DNA from: Nitrosococcus wardiae
Lineage (GTDB): Bacteria; Pseudomonadota; Gammaproteobacteria; Nitrosococcales; Nitrosococcaceae
Direction: 5' to 3'
Assembly: GCF_004421105.1 (NCBI RefSeq)
Contig: NZ_CP038033.1
Location: 453,659-517,658, forward strand
DNA: 64,000 nucleotides
The notes beneath the pieces were generated by a model. That model was given only the letters and a program-made list of their open reading frames with translations, was not told the DNA's origin and did no database searches. A program made the translations under genes and the position numbers. Positions within the stretch are counted from its first letter, which is position 1; the number at the start of each line of letters is the position of its first letter. This document shows positions 16,943 through 51,573 of this stretch, piece after piece.

Positions 16943-17806
16943 ATGGATCCGGAAACCTATTGCCAAAACAAGGCAACCCGACCAGGGACGAGTCTTTACT
17001 ATAGTCTCCTCTTTCTGCCCGAACCTCAACGGCACGCGGCCACCGCGCTCTATGCCTACCAAAAAGAGATCGTCGGCATTGTAGCCGAGTGCTCCGATTT
17101 AGGCGTTGCCCAAGCTAAGCTCCAGTGGTGGCAAGAGGAAATTACTCGATTATTTACCGGTCATCCCCGGCATCCCGTCACCCAGTCCCTCGCTGCTCCC
17201 ATCCAAAGCTATCACCTCCCTCAACCCTCCTTTCTAAAGGTAATTGAGGGCGTTGGCAGTGATTTAGGGCAATGGACGTATCCCTCTTTTCAGAGCCTGA
17301 CCTCCTATTGCTACCAAGTTGCTGGGAGCATCAGTTCGATGGCAACCGAGATCTATGGCTACCAGGACCCAAAAACTCGAAAATATGCTGAAAATTTAGG
17401 AATTGCCTTACAGTTGACCTATATTCTGCGCAATATACGCCAAGATGCTGCTCGGGGCCGTATTTACCTCCCCCGGGAAGAATTCACCCGCTTTAGGGTC
17501 CCAGTGGAAGCTATCTTCTCTGGAGGTGACCATTCCAAAGGAATGGTCACTCTCCTCGCCCAGCACACAACCCGGGCCCGCCAATACTTTTGTAGCGCCT
17601 TAATTGAACTTGGCAAACATGATTACTATTCACAGCGGGCCGGACTCACCCAAATAGCACTGGGTTTGAGTACTCTGAATGCCATCGAAGAAGAGGGCTA
17701 CCCGGTCCTCCAGCAGCGAACCTCTCTAACCCCCTTGCGTAAGCTTTGGATCGCCTGGCGCACCTCGCACCGCGCCCGACGAGGCCTCGCTCCCCGGTGC
17801 CAATAA
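16943..17806 (+). CDS. squalene/phytoene-synthase-family protein with degenerate catalytic motifs
   Basis: A 287-residue protein clearly homologous to presqualene-diphosphate synthase HpnD: YYSLLFLPEPQRHAATALYAY, ECSDLGVAQAKLQWW, and DAARGRIYLPREE. Both Asp-rich motifs that bind Mg-diphosphate are damaged. The first (DDxxD in active enzymes) reads VGIVAE at residues 44-49. In the second, the first Asp is Asn (RNIRQD, 163-168). No other hopanoid gene is nearby. I therefore infer that it does not make squalene. It may be a non-catalytic relative, as NDUFAF6 is for complex I in mitochondria, or an enzyme with altered chemistry. It converges on rluB, 21 bp away. Confidence 0.85.
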   Translation: MDPETYCQNKATRPGTSLYYSLLFLPEPQRHAATALYAYQKEIVGIVAECSDLGVAQAKLQWWQEEITRLFTGHPRHPVTQSLAAPIQSYHLPQPSFLKVIEGVGSDLGQWTYPSFQSLTSYCYQVAGSISSMATEIYGYQDPKTRKYAENLGIALQLTYILRNIRQDAARGRIYLPREEFTRFRVPVEAIFSGGDHSKGMVTLLAQHTTRARQYFCSALIELGKHDYYSQRAGLTQIALGLSTLNAIEEEGYPVLQQRTSLTPLRKLWIAWRTSHRARRGLAPRCQ

Positions 17807-39723: not shown

Positions 39724-39774
39724 TATTATTTAAGCAAGCCTGCTGCATTCAGCCCCCAATAAAAGGAGAACAAA

Positions 39775-40503
39775 ATGGCTCAGGCGAATAGCGACAACCG
39801 CACCAATGAGTGGTTTGTTCCTTCCTTTGGCCCATTGAAGTTCCGAGTCCTGATAGGGCTGTTGTTTCTGCCATACACCAGCATGGTTCTTGCTTATACG
39901 GTGATTGGCTCCATGCTCGCCCCGACGATATACTGGGACCGGGTGGCTGCTATCCTACTCATTTACTTTCTCGCTTTAGGCATTGGCGCCCATGCCCTGG
40001 ACGCCCTAGGCAGCAAGAACATCAAACCCTGGGGCCATGTCTTTTCAGTGAACCAGCTTCGTGCCCTCGCCACTTTCTCTCTCATCGCCGCCTATGGGAT
40101 TGGCATTTACTATATGCTGATCCATACCCCTCTACTCTGGCTCATTGCTATCCCCGAAGGTTTTTTTGTTCTTGCCTACAATCTAGAGTGGTTCAAGGGA
40201 CGGTTTCATACCGATGGCTGGTTTGCCTTGTCCTGGGGAACGCTACCCGCCCTGGGGGGCTATATTCTGCAGACCAACCAACTATCCCTGGCGGCTCTGC
40301 TAGTAGGCGCTGCCATGGGCTTTTTAAGCCTGGTGGAAATTAAGGCCTCTCGTCCCTATAAAGCGCTCAAACGGGCTCACACCTTGGATAGAGGTGAGAA
40401 AGATTGGGCTCAAGCTCACACCTTAGAAAGCATATTAAAAAGTATCAGCCTAGGGGTTATCTTGCTTGGCGTTGGCATGGCCATCTGGCGCGGGTGGGCC
40501 TAA
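39775..40503 (+). CDS. UbiA-like polytopic membrane protein, function unknown
   Basis: A 242-residue protein with seven or so membrane helices. Between helices it has two conserved-looking polar segments: GIGAHALDALGSK (about residue 72) and YNLEWFKGRFHTDGW (about 138). They sit where UbiA-superfamily prenyltransferases carry their two Asp-rich motifs, but neither is a standard NDxxDxxxD. I read it as a distant UbiA-like enzyme because the next gene makes a polyprenyl diphosphate. The family match is from memory of motif layout, not a proven homology. AGGAG lies 8 bp before the ATG. Confidence 0.55.
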   Translation: MAQANSDNRTNEWFVPSFGPLKFRVLIGLLFLPYTSMVLAYTVIGSMLAPTIYWDRVAAILLIYFLALGIGAHALDALGSKNIKPWGHVFSVNQLRALATFSLIAAYGIGIYYMLIHTPLLWLIAIPEGFFVLAYNLEWFKGRFHTDGWFALSWGTLPALGGYILQTNQLSLAALLVGAAMGFLSLVEIKASRPYKALKRAHTLDRGEKDWAQAHTLESILKSISLGVILLGVGMAIWRGWA

Positions 40504-40520
40504 GAAAAAGGAATAATTGG

Positions 40521-41510
40521 ATGAATTTTCCCAGCTATTGGAGAGAGACCCGTAGCCGGCTTGATCAAGAGCTACGCTGCCAAATACCCATACTTTTTTC
40601 TACCCTTCCCCCTCTACAGATAGAGACCGTTCAACAAATTATCAGGGACGGCAAACACATTCGAGGCTGCTTGGTTTGTCTTATCAACAATGCCCTAGGA
40701 GGCAAGACCGAAGATGCCTTGCCAAGAGCGATAGCCATCGAATGCATTCAAGCAGCCTCGCTTATCCATGACGATTACGTAGATGAGGACGTCACCCGCC
40801 GCCAGCGTCCTGCGACCTGGACCGTGGAAGGGCCGCGAAGGGCGGTGCTTTTGGGAGATGTCATGTTTGCAACCGCAATCCAGAGCATGGCGGAATTAGG
40901 TAACGAGGATGGGGCCATCGTAGCACGTGCCATTGCTACGGTAGCTAATGGTGCCTACCAAGAGCTTTCTTGGCAGACGGATGGGGGGGGAGCTAACCTG
41001 TTCGAAGCAGGCATTTATGATCGCATTATCTATCTCAAAACGGGGGCCCTTTTCGGTGCAGCATGCCAATTAGGCGCCATTGCCACGGGTGCCTCCCAAG
41101 AAATCTCAACTTTGGCCTACGCTTTTGGCACCCGGACGGGGGAAGCCTATCAAATTGCCGATGACCTTCAAGACTTTATCACATTATGGGAGCATCCCCA
41201 GGAAGGGTTCAAAAAACTCTCTCCGCTACTCCCTGCACTCAATTACTTCTGTCATAGAATGGGGCTAGCTTTACCCCACCACGCCTCCCACCAGCAAAGG
41301 GCCCTCCATGAGTGGTGTCAGCGCATTGGGGAAGACTTCATCAACTGCATGGAACAGGAGATCAGTCTACGCTTAAAGCAAGCAGAATCTTATATTGAGT
41401 ACCTTCCCGATAACCCCTATACAAAGATGCTAAGCAAGGCACCGGCCAAAATCGCCACTATGATGTATTGCTCCACCCTCCCTCCCGGGACCGCGTATCA
41501 GATTTTATGA
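40521..41510 (+). CDS. polyprenyl diphosphate synthase-family protein
   Basis: A 329-residue trans-isoprenyl diphosphate synthase. The first Asp-rich motif is complete in LIHDDYVDEDVTRRQRPATW (DDxxD, about residues 85-89) and the second in YQIADDLQDF (about 217-221). GKHIRGCLVCL replaces the usual GGKRxRP near the N terminus. Product length cannot be read from sequence alone. ATG 40521 follows AAGGA and lies 17 bp after the membrane-protein gene, making a two-gene operon. It contains a G8 run at 40983-40990. The usual start of the frame (40404) would overlap the previous gene and has no homology. Confidence 0.88.
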   Translation: MNFPSYWRETRSRLDQELRCQIPILFSTLPPLQIETVQQIIRDGKHIRGCLVCLINNALGGKTEDALPRAIAIECIQAASLIHDDYVDEDVTRRQRPATWTVEGPRRAVLLGDVMFATAIQSMAELGNEDGAIVARAIATVANGAYQELSWQTDGGGANLFEAGIYDRIIYLKTGALFGAACQLGAIATGASQEISTLAYAFGTRTGEAYQIADDLQDFITLWEHPQEGFKKLSPLLPALNYFCHRMGLALPHHASHQQRALHEWCQRIGEDFINCMEQEISLRLKQAESYIEYLPDNPYTKMLSKAPAKIATMMYCSTLPPGTAYQIL

Positions 41511-41519
41511 GTGGTTTGT

Positions 41520-42215
41520 CTATTTCCGGGCTGAAACAATGGCTGAACCATAAAGAGTCAAATATTCCATTTGAATATGGCGGAACCCCTCTTGCTGGAG
41601 CGATTCTTTCAGCTCTGACAGCCAAGGACTCTCCTCAATCAACTGGGGCAGCCCATAATAGATTTCTCTCCAGGAGGGGAAAAAAAAGGTGCCAATAGTC
41701 TGAAGCATCTTAAAGTAAAAACGCCAGATTTGGACAAGGTAAGGTTTGGGAGGAAAAGTAAAGTCATGCATTAAGAGTAGCCCCCCCTCTTTCAGCATGG
41801 TCTTGCTGCTATGGGTAAGAAGCTTCAAATCAGCATATTTAGCCAAGTAGGAGGAACTAATGCAATCAAAAGGCTCCTTTGAGCGATAATCTTCTGCCCG
41901 GCTTAATACCAGCTCAATGTTATTGACCCCTAATTTCTGAACCTTGTAACGTGCAACCTCCAGGTATTCTTCCCGCAATTCTACGCCAACCACCTGGCAG
42001 TCAGGATAGCGGTTAGCAATAGCCAAGGTGGAAATCCCTGTCCCACAAGCAAAGTCTAAGATGCGCCTGGGATTCGGCGGCATCATATTCACCATCTTGC
42101 GTTTCCAGAGACGATCAATTCCCAAGGTCGCCCCATTGACCATAAAATCATAGCTCTTGCCAGTCCCAGCAAAAAACCGCTGGACCAACATCAATTTTGG
42201 ATCAGGTTGTTTCAT
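41520..42215 (-). CDS. class I SAM-dependent methyltransferase (UbiE/Coq5-like)
   Basis: A 231-residue methyltransferase. The N-terminal segment (FFAGTGKSYDFMVNGATLGIDRLWKRKM) resembles the entry region of UbiE-type quinone methyltransferases. The SAM site is RRILDFACGTGISTLAIANRYP, followed by VVGVELREEYLEVA and LKEGGLLLMHDFTFPPKPYL. It converges on the polyprenyl synthase gene with 9 bp between. I infer that it methylates a prenylated or quinone-like product of this locus, though that link is positional only. Confidence 0.82.
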   Translation of the reverse strand: MKQPDPKLMLVQRFFAGTGKSYDFMVNGATLGIDRLWKRKMVNMMPPNPRRILDFACGTGISTLAIANRYPDCQVVGVELREEYLEVARYKVQKLGVNNIELVLSRAEDYRSKEPFDCISSSYLAKYADLKLLTHSSKTMLKEGGLLLMHDFTFPPKPYLVQIWRFYFKMLQTIGTFFFPSWREIYYGLPQLIEESPWLSELKESLQQEGFRHIQMEYLTLYGSAIVSARK

Positions 42216-48999: not shown

Positions 49000-50094
49000 T
49001 CAGGCAAAACGACCTAGGTGTACTGGCATGCGCCTAGCCCCCCAAGTCCCAGGGACTGACTCAAAAACGCCAGCACAAGGCGTGTCGCACCGCTGGCAAT
49101 AGCCATTGGCGGTCAACCCCCAGTCCGATAGGCTATACCAATCCCGGCCAATCAGCAGATGGCCACAGTGGTGGCAATAAGTACTCCCCCCCTTGAGATC
49201 ATGAACATTGCCCACATAAGCATAGCGAATGCCATTTTCAACTGCAATTTGGCGGGCCCGCATCAAAGTGGCAGATGGGGTGGATAATTTATCCATCATC
49301 TTCCAGTCAGGGTGGAAAGCAGTAAAGTGCCAGGGGACCTCCCTTCCCAAATGCTCCACAACCCATTGACTCATCGCTTCCAACTCCTGATTGGAATCGT
49401 TTTCACCAGGGATTAAAAGAGTCGTCATCTCAAACCAAACTTGGGTTTCATATTTTAGATAGGCCAAAGTATCCAGTACCGGTTGTAGATGTCCTCCCGT
49501 GATCTTGCGGTAAAATTTTTCAGTGAAAGCTTTGAGATCGACATTGGCGGCATCCATATAACGGTAAAATTCCATCCGTGGCTCATCACAAATATAACCC
49601 GCTGTTACTGCAACGGATTTAATACCTCGCTCGCGGCAAGCCTGGGCAACATCGATAGCATACTCCATAAAGATAACAGGGTCATTGTAAGTATATGCCA
49701 CACTACGGCACCCGAGTTCTCCAGCCGCACGAGCAATGGCCTCCGGGCTGGCCTGATCAGCAAGAGTGTCAAATTCTCGCGACTTGCTGATGTCCCAATT
49801 TTGACAGAATTTACATGCCAAATTACAACCCGCTGTTCCAAAAGACAGGATGGGTGTTCCCGGTAAAAAATGATTTAGAGGCTTTTTTTCAATAGGATCG
49901 ATACAGTAGCCACTAGAACGCCCATAAGTGGTTAAAACAATTTGACCGTCCTGGCAAGCACGGACAAAACACAACCCTTGTTGGCCCTCACGTAATTTGC
50001 AATAACGGGGGCACAAATCACATTGGACCCGACCATCATCCAAGCGATGCCAATAACGAGTGGGAACCGTATCCGAAAAGGTTTCAATGACCAA
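49000..50094 (-). CDS. amrS: AmmeMemoRadiSam system radical SAM enzyme
   Basis: A 364-residue radical SAM protein with C-x3-C-x2-C in GTAGCNLACKFCQNW (about residues 87-101). An N-terminal cysteine cluster is CDLCPRYCKLREGQQGLC, and a C-terminal rubredoxin-like set is CHHCGH and YCQRCDTPC. It belongs to the AmrS group, always found with AMMECR1- and Memo-like proteins; the substrate is unproven. The start is a TTG at 50094, supported by AGGAG eight bases upstream, and there is no ATG before the first cysteines. Divergent from amrB-amrA, 134 bp away. Confidence 0.93.
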   Translation of the reverse strand: MVIETFSDTVPTRYWHRLDDGRVQCDLCPRYCKLREGQQGLCFVRACQDGQIVLTTYGRSSGYCIDPIEKKPLNHFLPGTPILSFGTAGCNLACKFCQNWDISKSREFDTLADQASPEAIARAAGELGCRSVAYTYNDPVIFMEYAIDVAQACRERGIKSVAVTAGYICDEPRMEFYRYMDAANVDLKAFTEKFYRKITGGHLQPVLDTLAYLKYETQVWFEMTTLLIPGENDSNQELEAMSQWVVEHLGREVPWHFTAFHPDWKMMDKLSTPSATLMRARQIAVENGIRYAYVGNVHDLKGGSTYCHHCGHLLIGRDWYSLSDWGLTANGYCQRCDTPCAGVFESVPGTWGARRMPVHLGRFA

Positions 50095-50228
50095 CGCAAT
50101 AACTCCTGGGCAGCTCCTTGGGCGCCCTCATGGGAAATACTCAGCTTTTATGCGTTAGATAGTGTTCACCAGTAAAGTTTCCCTATTGGCTTGTTCCCCG
50201 CTATCCTATTTCATTTTGAGGATAAACC

Positions 50229-51014
50229 ATGATGACCTTACGGCAACCGGCTGTTGCAGGCCTATTCTATCCTGCCGATTTGGTGGCACTACAAACCCAA
50301 ATACAGAACTTTTTCAAGACGATTGGAACAGGCGGGAGCCCACCCAAAGCCATTATTGCACCCCATGCAGGCTATCGCTACTCTGGCCCAGTAGCGGCAT
50401 CAGCTTACGCCACTCTACAAAAAGTCCAGGAGCGGATTCATCGGGTTATTCTTCTAGGTCCTTCCCATCGAATTCCCTTTTATGGGATAGCAACCAGCCA
50501 GGTAGAGGGTTTCGCAACCCCCCTTGGCATCGTTCCCGTAAACGAAAATGATTTACAACTGGCCTTAACCCTCCCTCAGGTCAGAATACTAGATGAGTCC
50601 CATGCCCTAGAGCATAGCTTGGAAGTCCAGCTGCCTTTCTTGCAGGAAACTCTCGGTGATTTTTCCCTGGTTCCACTAGTTGTAGGGCAGACCTCCCCCA
50701 AACAGGTCAAGGAGGTACTCGATCTCTTTTGGGATAGCAAGGAGACCTTAATTATCGTCAGTTCAGATTTAAGCCATTATCACGACTACGCTACTGCCCA
50801 ACAGCTCGATAGGGCTACCACCAAAGCAATAGAAGTTTTACAGCCCGAGGTGATTCATCCTGAACAGGCCTGCGGTTACATTCCAATGGGCGGGCTCCTC
50901 ATGGCGGCACGGGAACGCGGCCTTCACGGGACCACCCTTGACCTCCGCAATTCCGGTGATACCGCAGGTTCCCGAGATCAAGTCGTTGGCTACGGTGCCT
51001 ATGTCTTTCAGTAA
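50229..51014 (+). CDS. amrB: AmmeMemoRadiSam system protein B (Memo family)
   Basis: A 261-residue Memo-like protein, the bacterial relative of human MEMO1, with a fold like class III extradiol dioxygenases. Metal-site residues are visible in IAPHAGYRYSGPVAASAY (His), EHSLEVQLPFLQ (Glu-His) and SSDLSHYHDY (His). GCGY-type residues in CGYIPMGGLL follow. The N terminus RQPAVAGLFYP is a family hallmark. It overlaps amrA by 14 bp and so is translationally coupled. Confidence 0.94.
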   Translation: MMTLRQPAVAGLFYPADLVALQTQIQNFFKTIGTGGSPPKAIIAPHAGYRYSGPVAASAYATLQKVQERIHRVILLGPSHRIPFYGIATSQVEGFATPLGIVPVNENDLQLALTLPQVRILDESHALEHSLEVQLPFLQETLGDFSLVPLVVGQTSPKQVKEVLDLFWDSKETLIIVSSDLSHYHDYATAQQLDRATTKAIEVLQPEVIHPEQACGYIPMGGLLMAARERGLHGTTLDLRNSGDTAGSRDQVVGYGAYVFQ

Positions 51015-51573
51015 TCCCCCCGTTTTTTTACCAGCAGAAAGGCAGAGATTGGGAGAAATAGCCCGTGACTCTATTCGCCACGGACTCGAGACAGGGGAAC
51101 CTTTGCCTATTGAACTCGATAACTATCCACCGCTAATCCAACGCATCGGCGCTAATTTTGTGACTTTGACATGGGAAAATCGGTTGCGCGGCTGTATGGG
51201 CACCCTCGAAGCCTATCGGCCCTTGGTCTTAGATGTTGCGGAAAATGCTTATGCCAGTGCTTTTCGTGACCCTCGATTCCCCTCGTTGACAACCGGGGAA
51301 TTTGAGCGGCTGACTATCGCCGTCTCAATCCTAACTCCCCCACTTTTGATGACCTTTGAGAACGAACAAGACCTGATTTTCCAGTTACGTCCAGGAGTTG
51401 ACGGGTTAGTACTAGAAGAAGGGACACTTCGGGGGACCTTTCTTCCTGCAGTTTGGGAAGTATTGCCCGATCCTCAGCTATTTCTCAGGGGACTCAAACG
51501 GAAGACGGGCCTACCACCAGAGTATTGGTCGGATTCTTTACGAGTGTTCCGCTATACGGTGGAAAAAATTTGA
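51001..51573 (+). CDS. amrA: AmmeMemoRadiSam system protein A (AMMECR1 family)
   Basis: A 190-residue AMMECR1-domain protein. The invariant motif is present in ENRLRGCMGTLEAYRPL (LRGCIGT in the consensus). FRDPRFPSLTTGEFERLTIAVSILTPP and GVDGLVLEEGTLRGTFLPAVWE follow. ATG 51001 is chosen because it begins just before the domain. The frame is open to 50938, inside amrB. AMMECR1 function is unknown in bacteria; the human gene is linked to a developmental syndrome. Confidence 0.94.
   Translation: MSFSNPPVFLPAERQRLGEIARDSIRHGLETGEPLPIELDNYPPLIQRIGANFVTLTWENRLRGCMGTLEAYRPLVLDVAENAYASAFRDPRFPSLTTGEFERLTIAVSILTPPLLMTFENEQDLIFQLRPGVDGLVLEEGTLRGTFLPAVWEVLPDPQLFLRGLKRKTGLPPEYWSDSLRVFRYTVEKI

Follow-up and report, generated by a model that had tools for sequence, protein, structure and literature searches.

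A rare two-gene module of a predicted UbiA-fold membrane protein and a Coq5-like methyltransferase in Nitrosococcus wardiae, and its possible role in the making of a quinol-like prenyl lipid

Introduction

Three adjoining open reading frames (ORFs), located at positions 39775-42215 of a 64,000-nucleotide stretch of Nitrosococcus wardiae DNA (contig NZ_CP038033.1, positions 453,659 to 517,658; hereafter the window), code for a UbiA-like membrane protein, a prenyl diphosphate synthase and a methyltransferase. The question raised by the locus is what such a set of genes makes, and which of the three belong together. We found that its core is a rare two-gene module, in which a protein of predicted UbiA fold that is devoid of aspartate (Asp) motifs is paired with a Coq5-like methyltransferase carrying a changed loop. 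Our tentative reading, to which we give slightly less than an even chance, is that the two form a dedicated two-enzyme module making a prenylated, C-methylated benzenoid (quinol-like) membrane lipid.

Results

The ribosome-binding-site-like sequence and the three genes are arranged as follows.

39761..39771, + strand: ribosome-binding-site-like AAAAGGAGAAC 5' of the first gene, read by eye from the sequence
39775..40503, + strand: predicted UbiA-fold membrane protein, 242 amino acids (aa); ORF, weak PF01040 match, AlphaFold2 model, UbiA proteins as nearest solved folds, conservation in 31 sequences (two partial)
40521..41510, + strand: trans-polyprenyl diphosphate synthase, 329 aa, the optional third gene of the module; PF00348, two Asp motifs, linkage
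41520..42215, - strand: UbiE/Coq5-type S-adenosylmethionine methyltransferase, 231 aa; PF01209, yeast Coq5 as nearest fold, co-occurrence with the UbiA-like gene

The UbiA-like gene is followed after 17 bp by the synthase gene on the same strand, and 9 bp further lies the methyltransferase gene, which is convergent to the other two. This layout had been described in an initial annotation made from the sequence alone, along with the HALD, YNLE and HTDGW motifs of the membrane protein and both Asp-rich motifs of the synthase, and our reading of the ORFs and the sequence agrees with it throughout. The three ORFs are real genes and not chance ORFs, since the synthase and the methyltransferase have firm Pfam scores (PF00348, PF01209), homologues of the UbiA-like protein are found in Pseudomonadota and Nitrospirota, and the ratios of nonsynonymous to synonymous substitution rates (dN/dS) are low. 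All three are under purifying selection, with dN/dS of 0.04-0.16 when the window was compared to three other genomes of the genus and 0.10-0.20 between two of these three congeners, values that are to be read in the light of a dS that approaches or reaches saturation for two of the congeners and of a methyltransferase comparison limited to 150-158 codons.

The real partner of the UbiA-like protein is METHYLTRANSFERASE, the methyltransferase. In profile searches of two draws of genomes, the UbiA-like gene was found in 4 of the 369 genomes of the class draw and in 12 of the 295 genomes of the Nitrospirota draw, and the methyltransferase, at E up to 1e-35, was likewise found in 4/369 and 12/295. 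The same 16 genomes were positive for both genes and no genome held only one, the draws being taken to be identical as both profiles were searched with the same settings, draw size and listed handles, with the non-matching genomes not all listed. Three of the 16 (G000, G063 and G068) were carriers known beforehand. The hypergeometric P for this co-occurrence is 1.3e-9 in the class and 1.4e-21 in Nitrospirota, relatedness not being corrected for, and in five of the 16 genomes the two genes lie on different contigs. When 26 genomes with the UbiA-like gene were checked singly, the specific methyltransferase scored above 300 bits in 25 and the next best listed methyltransferase stayed below 100 bits, in a list of second-best enzymes that is incomplete (MpqE of G361 is missing from it). 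In the one exception (G060), where no methyltransferase was seen, the contig ends right after the synthase. Together with three congeners these make 29 carrier genomes. In 20 of them the two genes converge at a distance of up to about 2.2 kb, in eight they lie on different contigs, and in one the UbiA-like gene was seen but the methyltransferase was not.

In the trees of the two proteins, drawn from 23 rows each (without G060, G061, G070 and the three congeners), one and the same ten-member group appears with starred support, whereas the remaining inner branches are mostly weak. The window UbiA-like protein has 58-69 per cent identity to records titled Nitrospirota and up to 75 per cent identity to records titled Betaproteobacteria, suggesting horizontal transfer of the gene. 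Within the order of G069 only 1 of 250 genomes, namely G069 itself, carried the UbiA-like gene, and in the draw made for G062 it was found in 3 of 148, these being G062 and two genomes already present in the Nitrospirota draw. Although titled Nitrospinota, G062 may be a Nitrospirota genome, because the listed non-matching handles of its draw were those of the Nitrospirota draw. A second UbiA-like copy was seen in G068 on another contig (L054:2199-2882), as a match with one in-frame stop.

A UbiA helical-bundle membrane fold is predicted for the UbiA-like protein, by a modest margin. The AlphaFold2 model, which was built from 14 family sequences, has a predicted local distance difference test score (pLDDT) of 85.4 and a predicted template modelling score of 0.84. 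When it was searched against the PDB with Foldseek, the first ten rows were all chains of the UbiA superfamily (E 0.012 to 0.095; TM-scores 0.50-0.57 by query length). With VIA-align the first nine rows were also from the UbiA superfamily, at Z 13.8-15.9 where the typical best Z is 14 for mostly helical models that have no clear Foldseek match, followed by soluble isoprenyl synthases at Z of 12.3 or less. In the sequence searches, the window protein matched PF01040 with 20 bits, below the gathering cut-off of 34.2, PF01040 was matched at E up to 0.01 by 9 of 14 family members, no NCBIfam model matched the protein, and the family profile found a single, irrelevant PDB sequence (E 0.95). UbiA structures have nine helices; the model has seven long helical segments, the first of which is broken. 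We read the protein as a remote, shortened member of the UbiA fold class. By the terms of the initial annotation, its proposal would fall if the protein showed no UbiA fold and its homologues were not linked to prenyl synthases; the fold is now predicted, and a prenyl synthase is linked to the gene in 11 of 29 genomes, so that the proposal is not refuted on these grounds.

The model and the alignment also show what stands at the places of the classical motifs, the equivalences to UbiA being drawn from helix order and weak local alignment.

39991..40002, + strand: HALD, in the position of UbiA motif I, where the second long helix ends; equivalence drawn from helix order and not from superposed coordinates
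40198..40215, + strand: GRFHTD, which aligns locally, and weakly, with the K-R-x-T loop of canonical UbiA
40336..40362, + strand: EIKASRPYK, in the position of UbiA motif II (DxxxD), from the alignment of 31 homologues and helix order

HALD occupies residues 73-76 of the window protein, YNLE residues 135-138 and HTDGW residues 145-149. Among the 31 homologues, two of which are partial, H73, D76, E128, N136, E138, H145, S192, R193, Y195 and K196 are invariant wherever covered. In place of motif I (NDxxDxxxD) there is HxxD in 29/29 covering sequences, with no Asn at 72 and no Asp at 80. In place of motif II, no Asp occurs in residues 188-196 in 31/31, and [EQ]-I-x-[AT]-S-R-x-Y-K is found instead. 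The classical Asp-rich motifs, which the initial annotation had found missing from the window protein, are thus missing family-wide; as neither is intact in any of the 31 homologues, their absence characterises the family and does not reflect decay at this locus.

The methyltransferase matches PF01209 with 85.5 bits (cut-off 20.1). Among its best 25 of 66 NCBIfam families, the quinone models score below their cut-offs (94.1 vs 216, 92.2 vs 158.35, and 81.2 vs 335 for MpqE). Its model has a pLDDT of 91.2, and the nearest solved fold is yeast Coq5 (4obw), which came first in both Foldseek (E 3e-16) and VIA-align (Z 24.1, 2.2 A over 214 residues). YecO/CmoA-type enzymes followed at Z 22.5, and the geranyl diphosphate C-methyltransferases were found at Z 18.0-18.4 and 3.6 A. 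Of the 19 PDB sequences that the family profile picked up (E up to 1e-8), Coq5 was again the only one to match over the full length. Two places in the protein were picked out by a loop comparison.

41826-41849, - strand: altered loop YLAKYADL
within 41751-41768, - strand: HDF

The RN of the Coq5 loop has a catalytic role. It was present in the catalytic loop of 15/15 canonical host enzymes, whereas 23/23 module members have L[AP]KY and a one-residue deletion. The residue preceding [DE]F was Leu in 15/15 canonical enzymes and His in 23/23 module members, the acidic residue being kept as Asp. In a tree, the module methyltransferases form a clade of their own (100/100), from which four UbiE enzymes of these hosts are separate; only four canonical enzymes entered the tree, a strict motif filter having dropped eleven of the fifteen, and the loop comparison used all fifteen.

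The third protein matches PF00348 with 139 bits (cut-off 27) and has both Asp motifs, DDYVD at 40770-40784 (from residue 84) and DDLQD at 41160-41174 (from residue 214). In the 11 linked copies the first motif is DDxxD with Ala five places before it and the second is DDxx[DE]; the Lys/Gly stretch (GKxxGxD) that follows the second motif in host IspA and IspB is missing from these copies and from the window synthase. A small residue before the first Asp motif is known to go with a long chain, and by this rule the Ala points to a long-chain product. The NCBIfam scores are all below the cut-offs shown, the best being those of encapsulin-cargo prenyl transferase, IdsA, IdsB and archaeal hexaprenyl synthase. 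Counting linked copies, the UbiA-like gene is immediately followed by a homologue of the window synthase in 11 of the 29 carriers (11 of 13 Pseudomonadota, 0 of the 16 others). The initial annotation saw in prenyl donor, membrane transferase and methyltransferase the core of quinone or prenylated-aromatic biosynthesis. Of the module, however, the synthase is not a core part: 18 of the 29 genomes have none next to the UbiA-like gene, whereas the methyltransferase was found in 28; the synthase is an optional third gene. In G292 a different prenyl synthase, with best NCBIfam scores for IdsA and encapsulin-cargo models below cut-off, lies divergently about 1.4 kb upstream (L048:7354-8499) and is possibly an independent recruitment.

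In a search of 59 genomes of relatives the UbiA-like gene was found in four, all belonging to the genus, host included, and was absent from both other genomes of the family (G004 and G005). Elsewhere in the host lie two strong UbiA-superfamily genes (C1:95701, C1:775366), two further prenyl synthases (C1:768548, C1:2336898) and a UbiE above its cut-off (C1:1868631, 406.7 bits). The triad is thus extra, and the genome search showed that the locus does not hold the host's only UbiA-type, UbiE or long-chain synthase gene. The early remark that no standard ubiquinone gene is present therefore holds at the locus, to which this judgement is confined. A further, very weak PF01040 match was seen in the host (17.4 bits, L021, G000:C1:3225743-3225895).

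Quinone type was assigned to 16 of the 29 carriers by a single methyltransferase marker gene, and UbiE-type or MpqE genes were found in all 16. MpqE exceeded its cut-off in 11 (nine, G361 and G066) and UbiE in the Pseudomonadota carriers G000, G533 and G381; G373 and G070 fell just under the equivalog cut-offs and over the subfamily cut-off. By this marker the typed carriers all look like ubiquinone- or methyl-plastoquinone-makers. Of the 12 carriers in the Nitrospirota draw, at least ten have MpqE, the remaining two (G292 and G068) not being among the typed genomes. The background, taken from a smaller draw on this phylum, is 66 of 168 genomes (binomial P 0.002 for ten or more of 12, relatedness ignored); five carriers are among the matches of that draw, in which the membership of G068 cannot be seen. 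Canonical UbiA-type genes are present besides the UbiA-like gene in 10 of 12 carriers searched. In G361 an MpqE gene is convergent to the module methyltransferase at a distance of about 0.2 kb (L060:8790-10443).

Neighbourhoods were inspected over some 5-10 kb around the UbiA-like gene and 6 kb around unlinked methyltransferases, with genes called as longest ORFs. A larger conserved cluster was considered and rejected, as only lineage-specific synteny was seen besides the synthase. Such synteny includes Ycf48-like genes, a neighbour gene that we take to be anmK, and an HpnM/HpnN/MlaA-like stretch in L011, L012, L044 and L051; a hopanoid link drawn from this stretch was dropped, since its proteins are far below the HpnN, HpnM and MlaA cut-offs. 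One Ycf48-like repeat protein (L046:7690-9570; 310 bits vs a cut-off of 326) is encoded directly upstream of the UbiA-like gene, and similar ones were seen in five other loci.

Two observations concern other parts of the window. HpnD, presqualene diphosphate synthase, is encoded at 16943-17803 (+ strand; 313 bits vs a cut-off of 278.6), and judging by this gene the host probably makes hopanoids. An AmmeMemoRadiSam radical SAM enzyme (662 bits) lies within 49003-51570 together with two adjoining partner-like ORFs, which are presumably the Memo and AMMECR1 partners.

Discussion

If the UbiA-like protein and the methyltransferase make a quinol-like lipid of their own, the UbiA-like protein would attach a polyprenyl chain to an aromatic compound that makers of ubiquinone and methyl-plastoquinone have at their disposal, after which the ring would be C-methylated by the methyltransferase. 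The chain would come from the dedicated synthase in most Pseudomonadota carriers and from a housekeeping synthase elsewhere. The mechanism would differ in detail from that of classical UbiA, with one conserved His/Asp site and with conserved Arg/Lys/Tyr in the usual position of the second Mg-binding Asp pair. This reading is supported by the predicted UbiA fold, the kinship of the methyltransferase to Coq5, the occurrence of both genes in the same 16 genomes, the ten-member group shared by both trees and the linkage to a synthase, as well as by the UbiE-type and MpqE genes of the typed carriers, the nearness of an MpqE gene to the module methyltransferase in G361 and the low dN/dS.

Several observations weigh against it. 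Classical UbiA enzymes need both Asp motifs, and as neither is intact here, it is not certain that the protein acts on prenyl diphosphates. The match in fold is only modest, with no Foldseek E-value below 0.01 and VIA-align scores around the typical best value, and a profile comparison of the family with the canonical UbiA/CtaB of the carriers, for which 15 of 20 fetched stretches passed the motif filter, came out near chance (local E about 0.03). No synthase is found beside the pair in most carriers, and the NCBIfam scores give no clear chain length where one is found, short-chain and geranylgeranyl diphosphate models being among the best. Across lineages no other gene recurs beside the pair, so the acceptor is not named by its neighbours. 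Finally, the link with ubiquinone and methyl-plastoquinone hosts, seen in 16 of 29 carriers, may only reflect aerobic life.

The enrichment of MpqE among the Nitrospirota carriers, the ubiquinone- or methyl-plastoquinone-type methyltransferases of all typed carriers, the MpqE neighbour in G361 and the closeness of the methyltransferase to Coq5 would also fit a pair that tailors the host's ubiquinone, methyl-plastoquinone or a late intermediate. Its tail would be altered or its ring would gain a methyl group, and the outcome would be a minor quinone of shifted redox potential. We consider this rather unlikely: the presence of a dedicated synthase in most Pseudomonadota carriers suggests that the chain is attached de novo, the MpqE linkage was seen in one genome only, and the typing covers 10 of the 12 and 16 of the 29 carriers. 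That the module either makes or tailors a quinol-like prenyl lipid, both possibilities being taken jointly, is nevertheless probable.

The initial annotation had suggested that the locus may make a dedicated terpenoid. A quinol-type lipid that is prenylated and C-methylated is the likelier product, given that Coq5 is the closest match of the methyltransferase and that the geranyl diphosphate methyltransferases are clearly more distant from it. Pairs of a methyltransferase and a terpene cyclase, and UbiA-type cyclases, are known from the literature. In a methylated terpenoid pathway of this kind, the methyltransferase would act on a prenyl diphosphate and the UbiA-fold protein, supplied with substrate by the synthase, would work as a terpene cyclase of a non-canonical, membrane-bound kind. 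Two genes would then suffice, which agrees with the lack of a recurring acceptor-making gene and with the prenyl synthase linkage, and a farnesyl diphosphate methyltransferase (24uw) is indeed among the weaker, partial PDB sequence matches (E 5.8e-5). Such a pathway is disfavoured, and we regard it as improbable, since the fold of the methyltransferase is nearer to Coq5, the small residues before the first Asp motif of the synthase point to long chains, and the motif regions of the UbiA-like protein offer no DDxxD for diphosphate ionisation.

The family-wide loss of the Asp motifs and the marginal profile similarity to active UbiA/CtaB might instead indicate that the UbiA-fold protein is not a transferase at all and serves as a membrane partner of the methyltransferase, as a lipid-binding scaffold or carrier. 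This appears quite improbable, as the invariant H73, D76, E128, N136, E138, H145, R193, Y195 and K196, all within long helices or adjoining them, resemble an active site, and as the gene is linked to a prenyl synthase in part of the carriers. That these are ordinary ubiquinone genes in redundant copy, as their membership in the wider families of UbiA, polyprenyl synthases and UbiE could suggest, can practically be dismissed, given the separate canonical copies in the host, the synthase and methyltransferase scores below the NCBIfam cut-offs shown, the UbiA-like protein without a match, the sporadic presence of the module (4/369 and 12/295) and the changed catalytic motifs.

The most far-reaching reading would be an unrecognised prenylquinone-type lipid, made through an Asp-poor UbiA-fold enzyme with a new diphosphate site (His/Asp and Arg/Lys/Tyr) and an obligate Coq5-like partner, and horizontally shared between ubiquinone-making Pseudomonadota, nitrifiers included, and methyl-plastoquinone-making Nitrospirota; we regard this as possible but doubtful. 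Quinones matter for reverse electron transport in carrier lineages other than Nitrospira. In Nitrospira their importance for this process is described in PMC12324825, where methyl-plastoquinones are a recent discovery and the only quinones of two Nitrospira species, and a 2026 survey notes that further quinones may await discovery (PMC13386864). The carriers are few and scattered among bacteria, nitrifier lineages included, and the pair would hardly be revealed by routine annotation, the UbiA-like protein being under the Pfam cut-off and without an NCBIfam model and the methyltransferase passing broad Pfam models only. No mention of such a pair was found in the titles and abstract beginnings listed by searches of the open-access literature (PMC). 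Found in the same genomes across two phyla, the pair offers a concrete gene target for an undiscovered quinone-like compound, and would show whether a UbiA-fold enzyme can work without Asp motifs.

Like the members of the UbiA superfamily (PF01040; UbiA, MpqA, CtaB, DGGGP synthase and UBIAD1), the UbiA-like protein has a predicted helical-bundle fold with long helices ending near polar motifs in the same order, and 11 of the 13 carriers from Pseudomonadota have a prenyl diphosphate synthase linked to its gene. It differs from them in its size of about 242 aa, its seven long helical segments, a motif I that is only HxxD and a motif II in which Asp gives way to E-x4-R-x-Y-K, besides falling below the Pfam cut-off and having no NCBIfam match. 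The methyltransferase resembles UbiE/Coq5/MenG and MpqE over its full length, with PF01209 above the cut-off and yeast Coq5 as nearest structure, but stands in its own clade, with RN replaced and His before [DE]F, below the NCBIfam quinone cut-offs shown. The window synthase shares both Asp motifs, GKxxR and KT with the trans-polyprenyl synthases (PF00348), but does not have the GKxxGxD stretch, and synthases of its kind are linked to the pair only in Pseudomonadota. A further parallel is the methyl-plastoquinone pathway of Nitrospirota, in which, according to PMC13386864, a UbiA/UbiE-type pair among MpqA-MpqE makes a C-methylated benzoquinone, MpqA-E being treated there as homologues of ubiquinone proteins. 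Like that pathway, the module brings a UbiA/UbiE-type pair to Nitrospirota. The module methyltransferase was nevertheless rejected as an MpqE, given its score of 81.2 bits against 335 and the separate MpqE of 11 typed carriers. The typed Nitrospirota carriers hold MpqE besides the module pair, and the pair is both less frequent within the phylum (12/295 vs 66/168 for MpqE) and present in Pseudomonadota as well.

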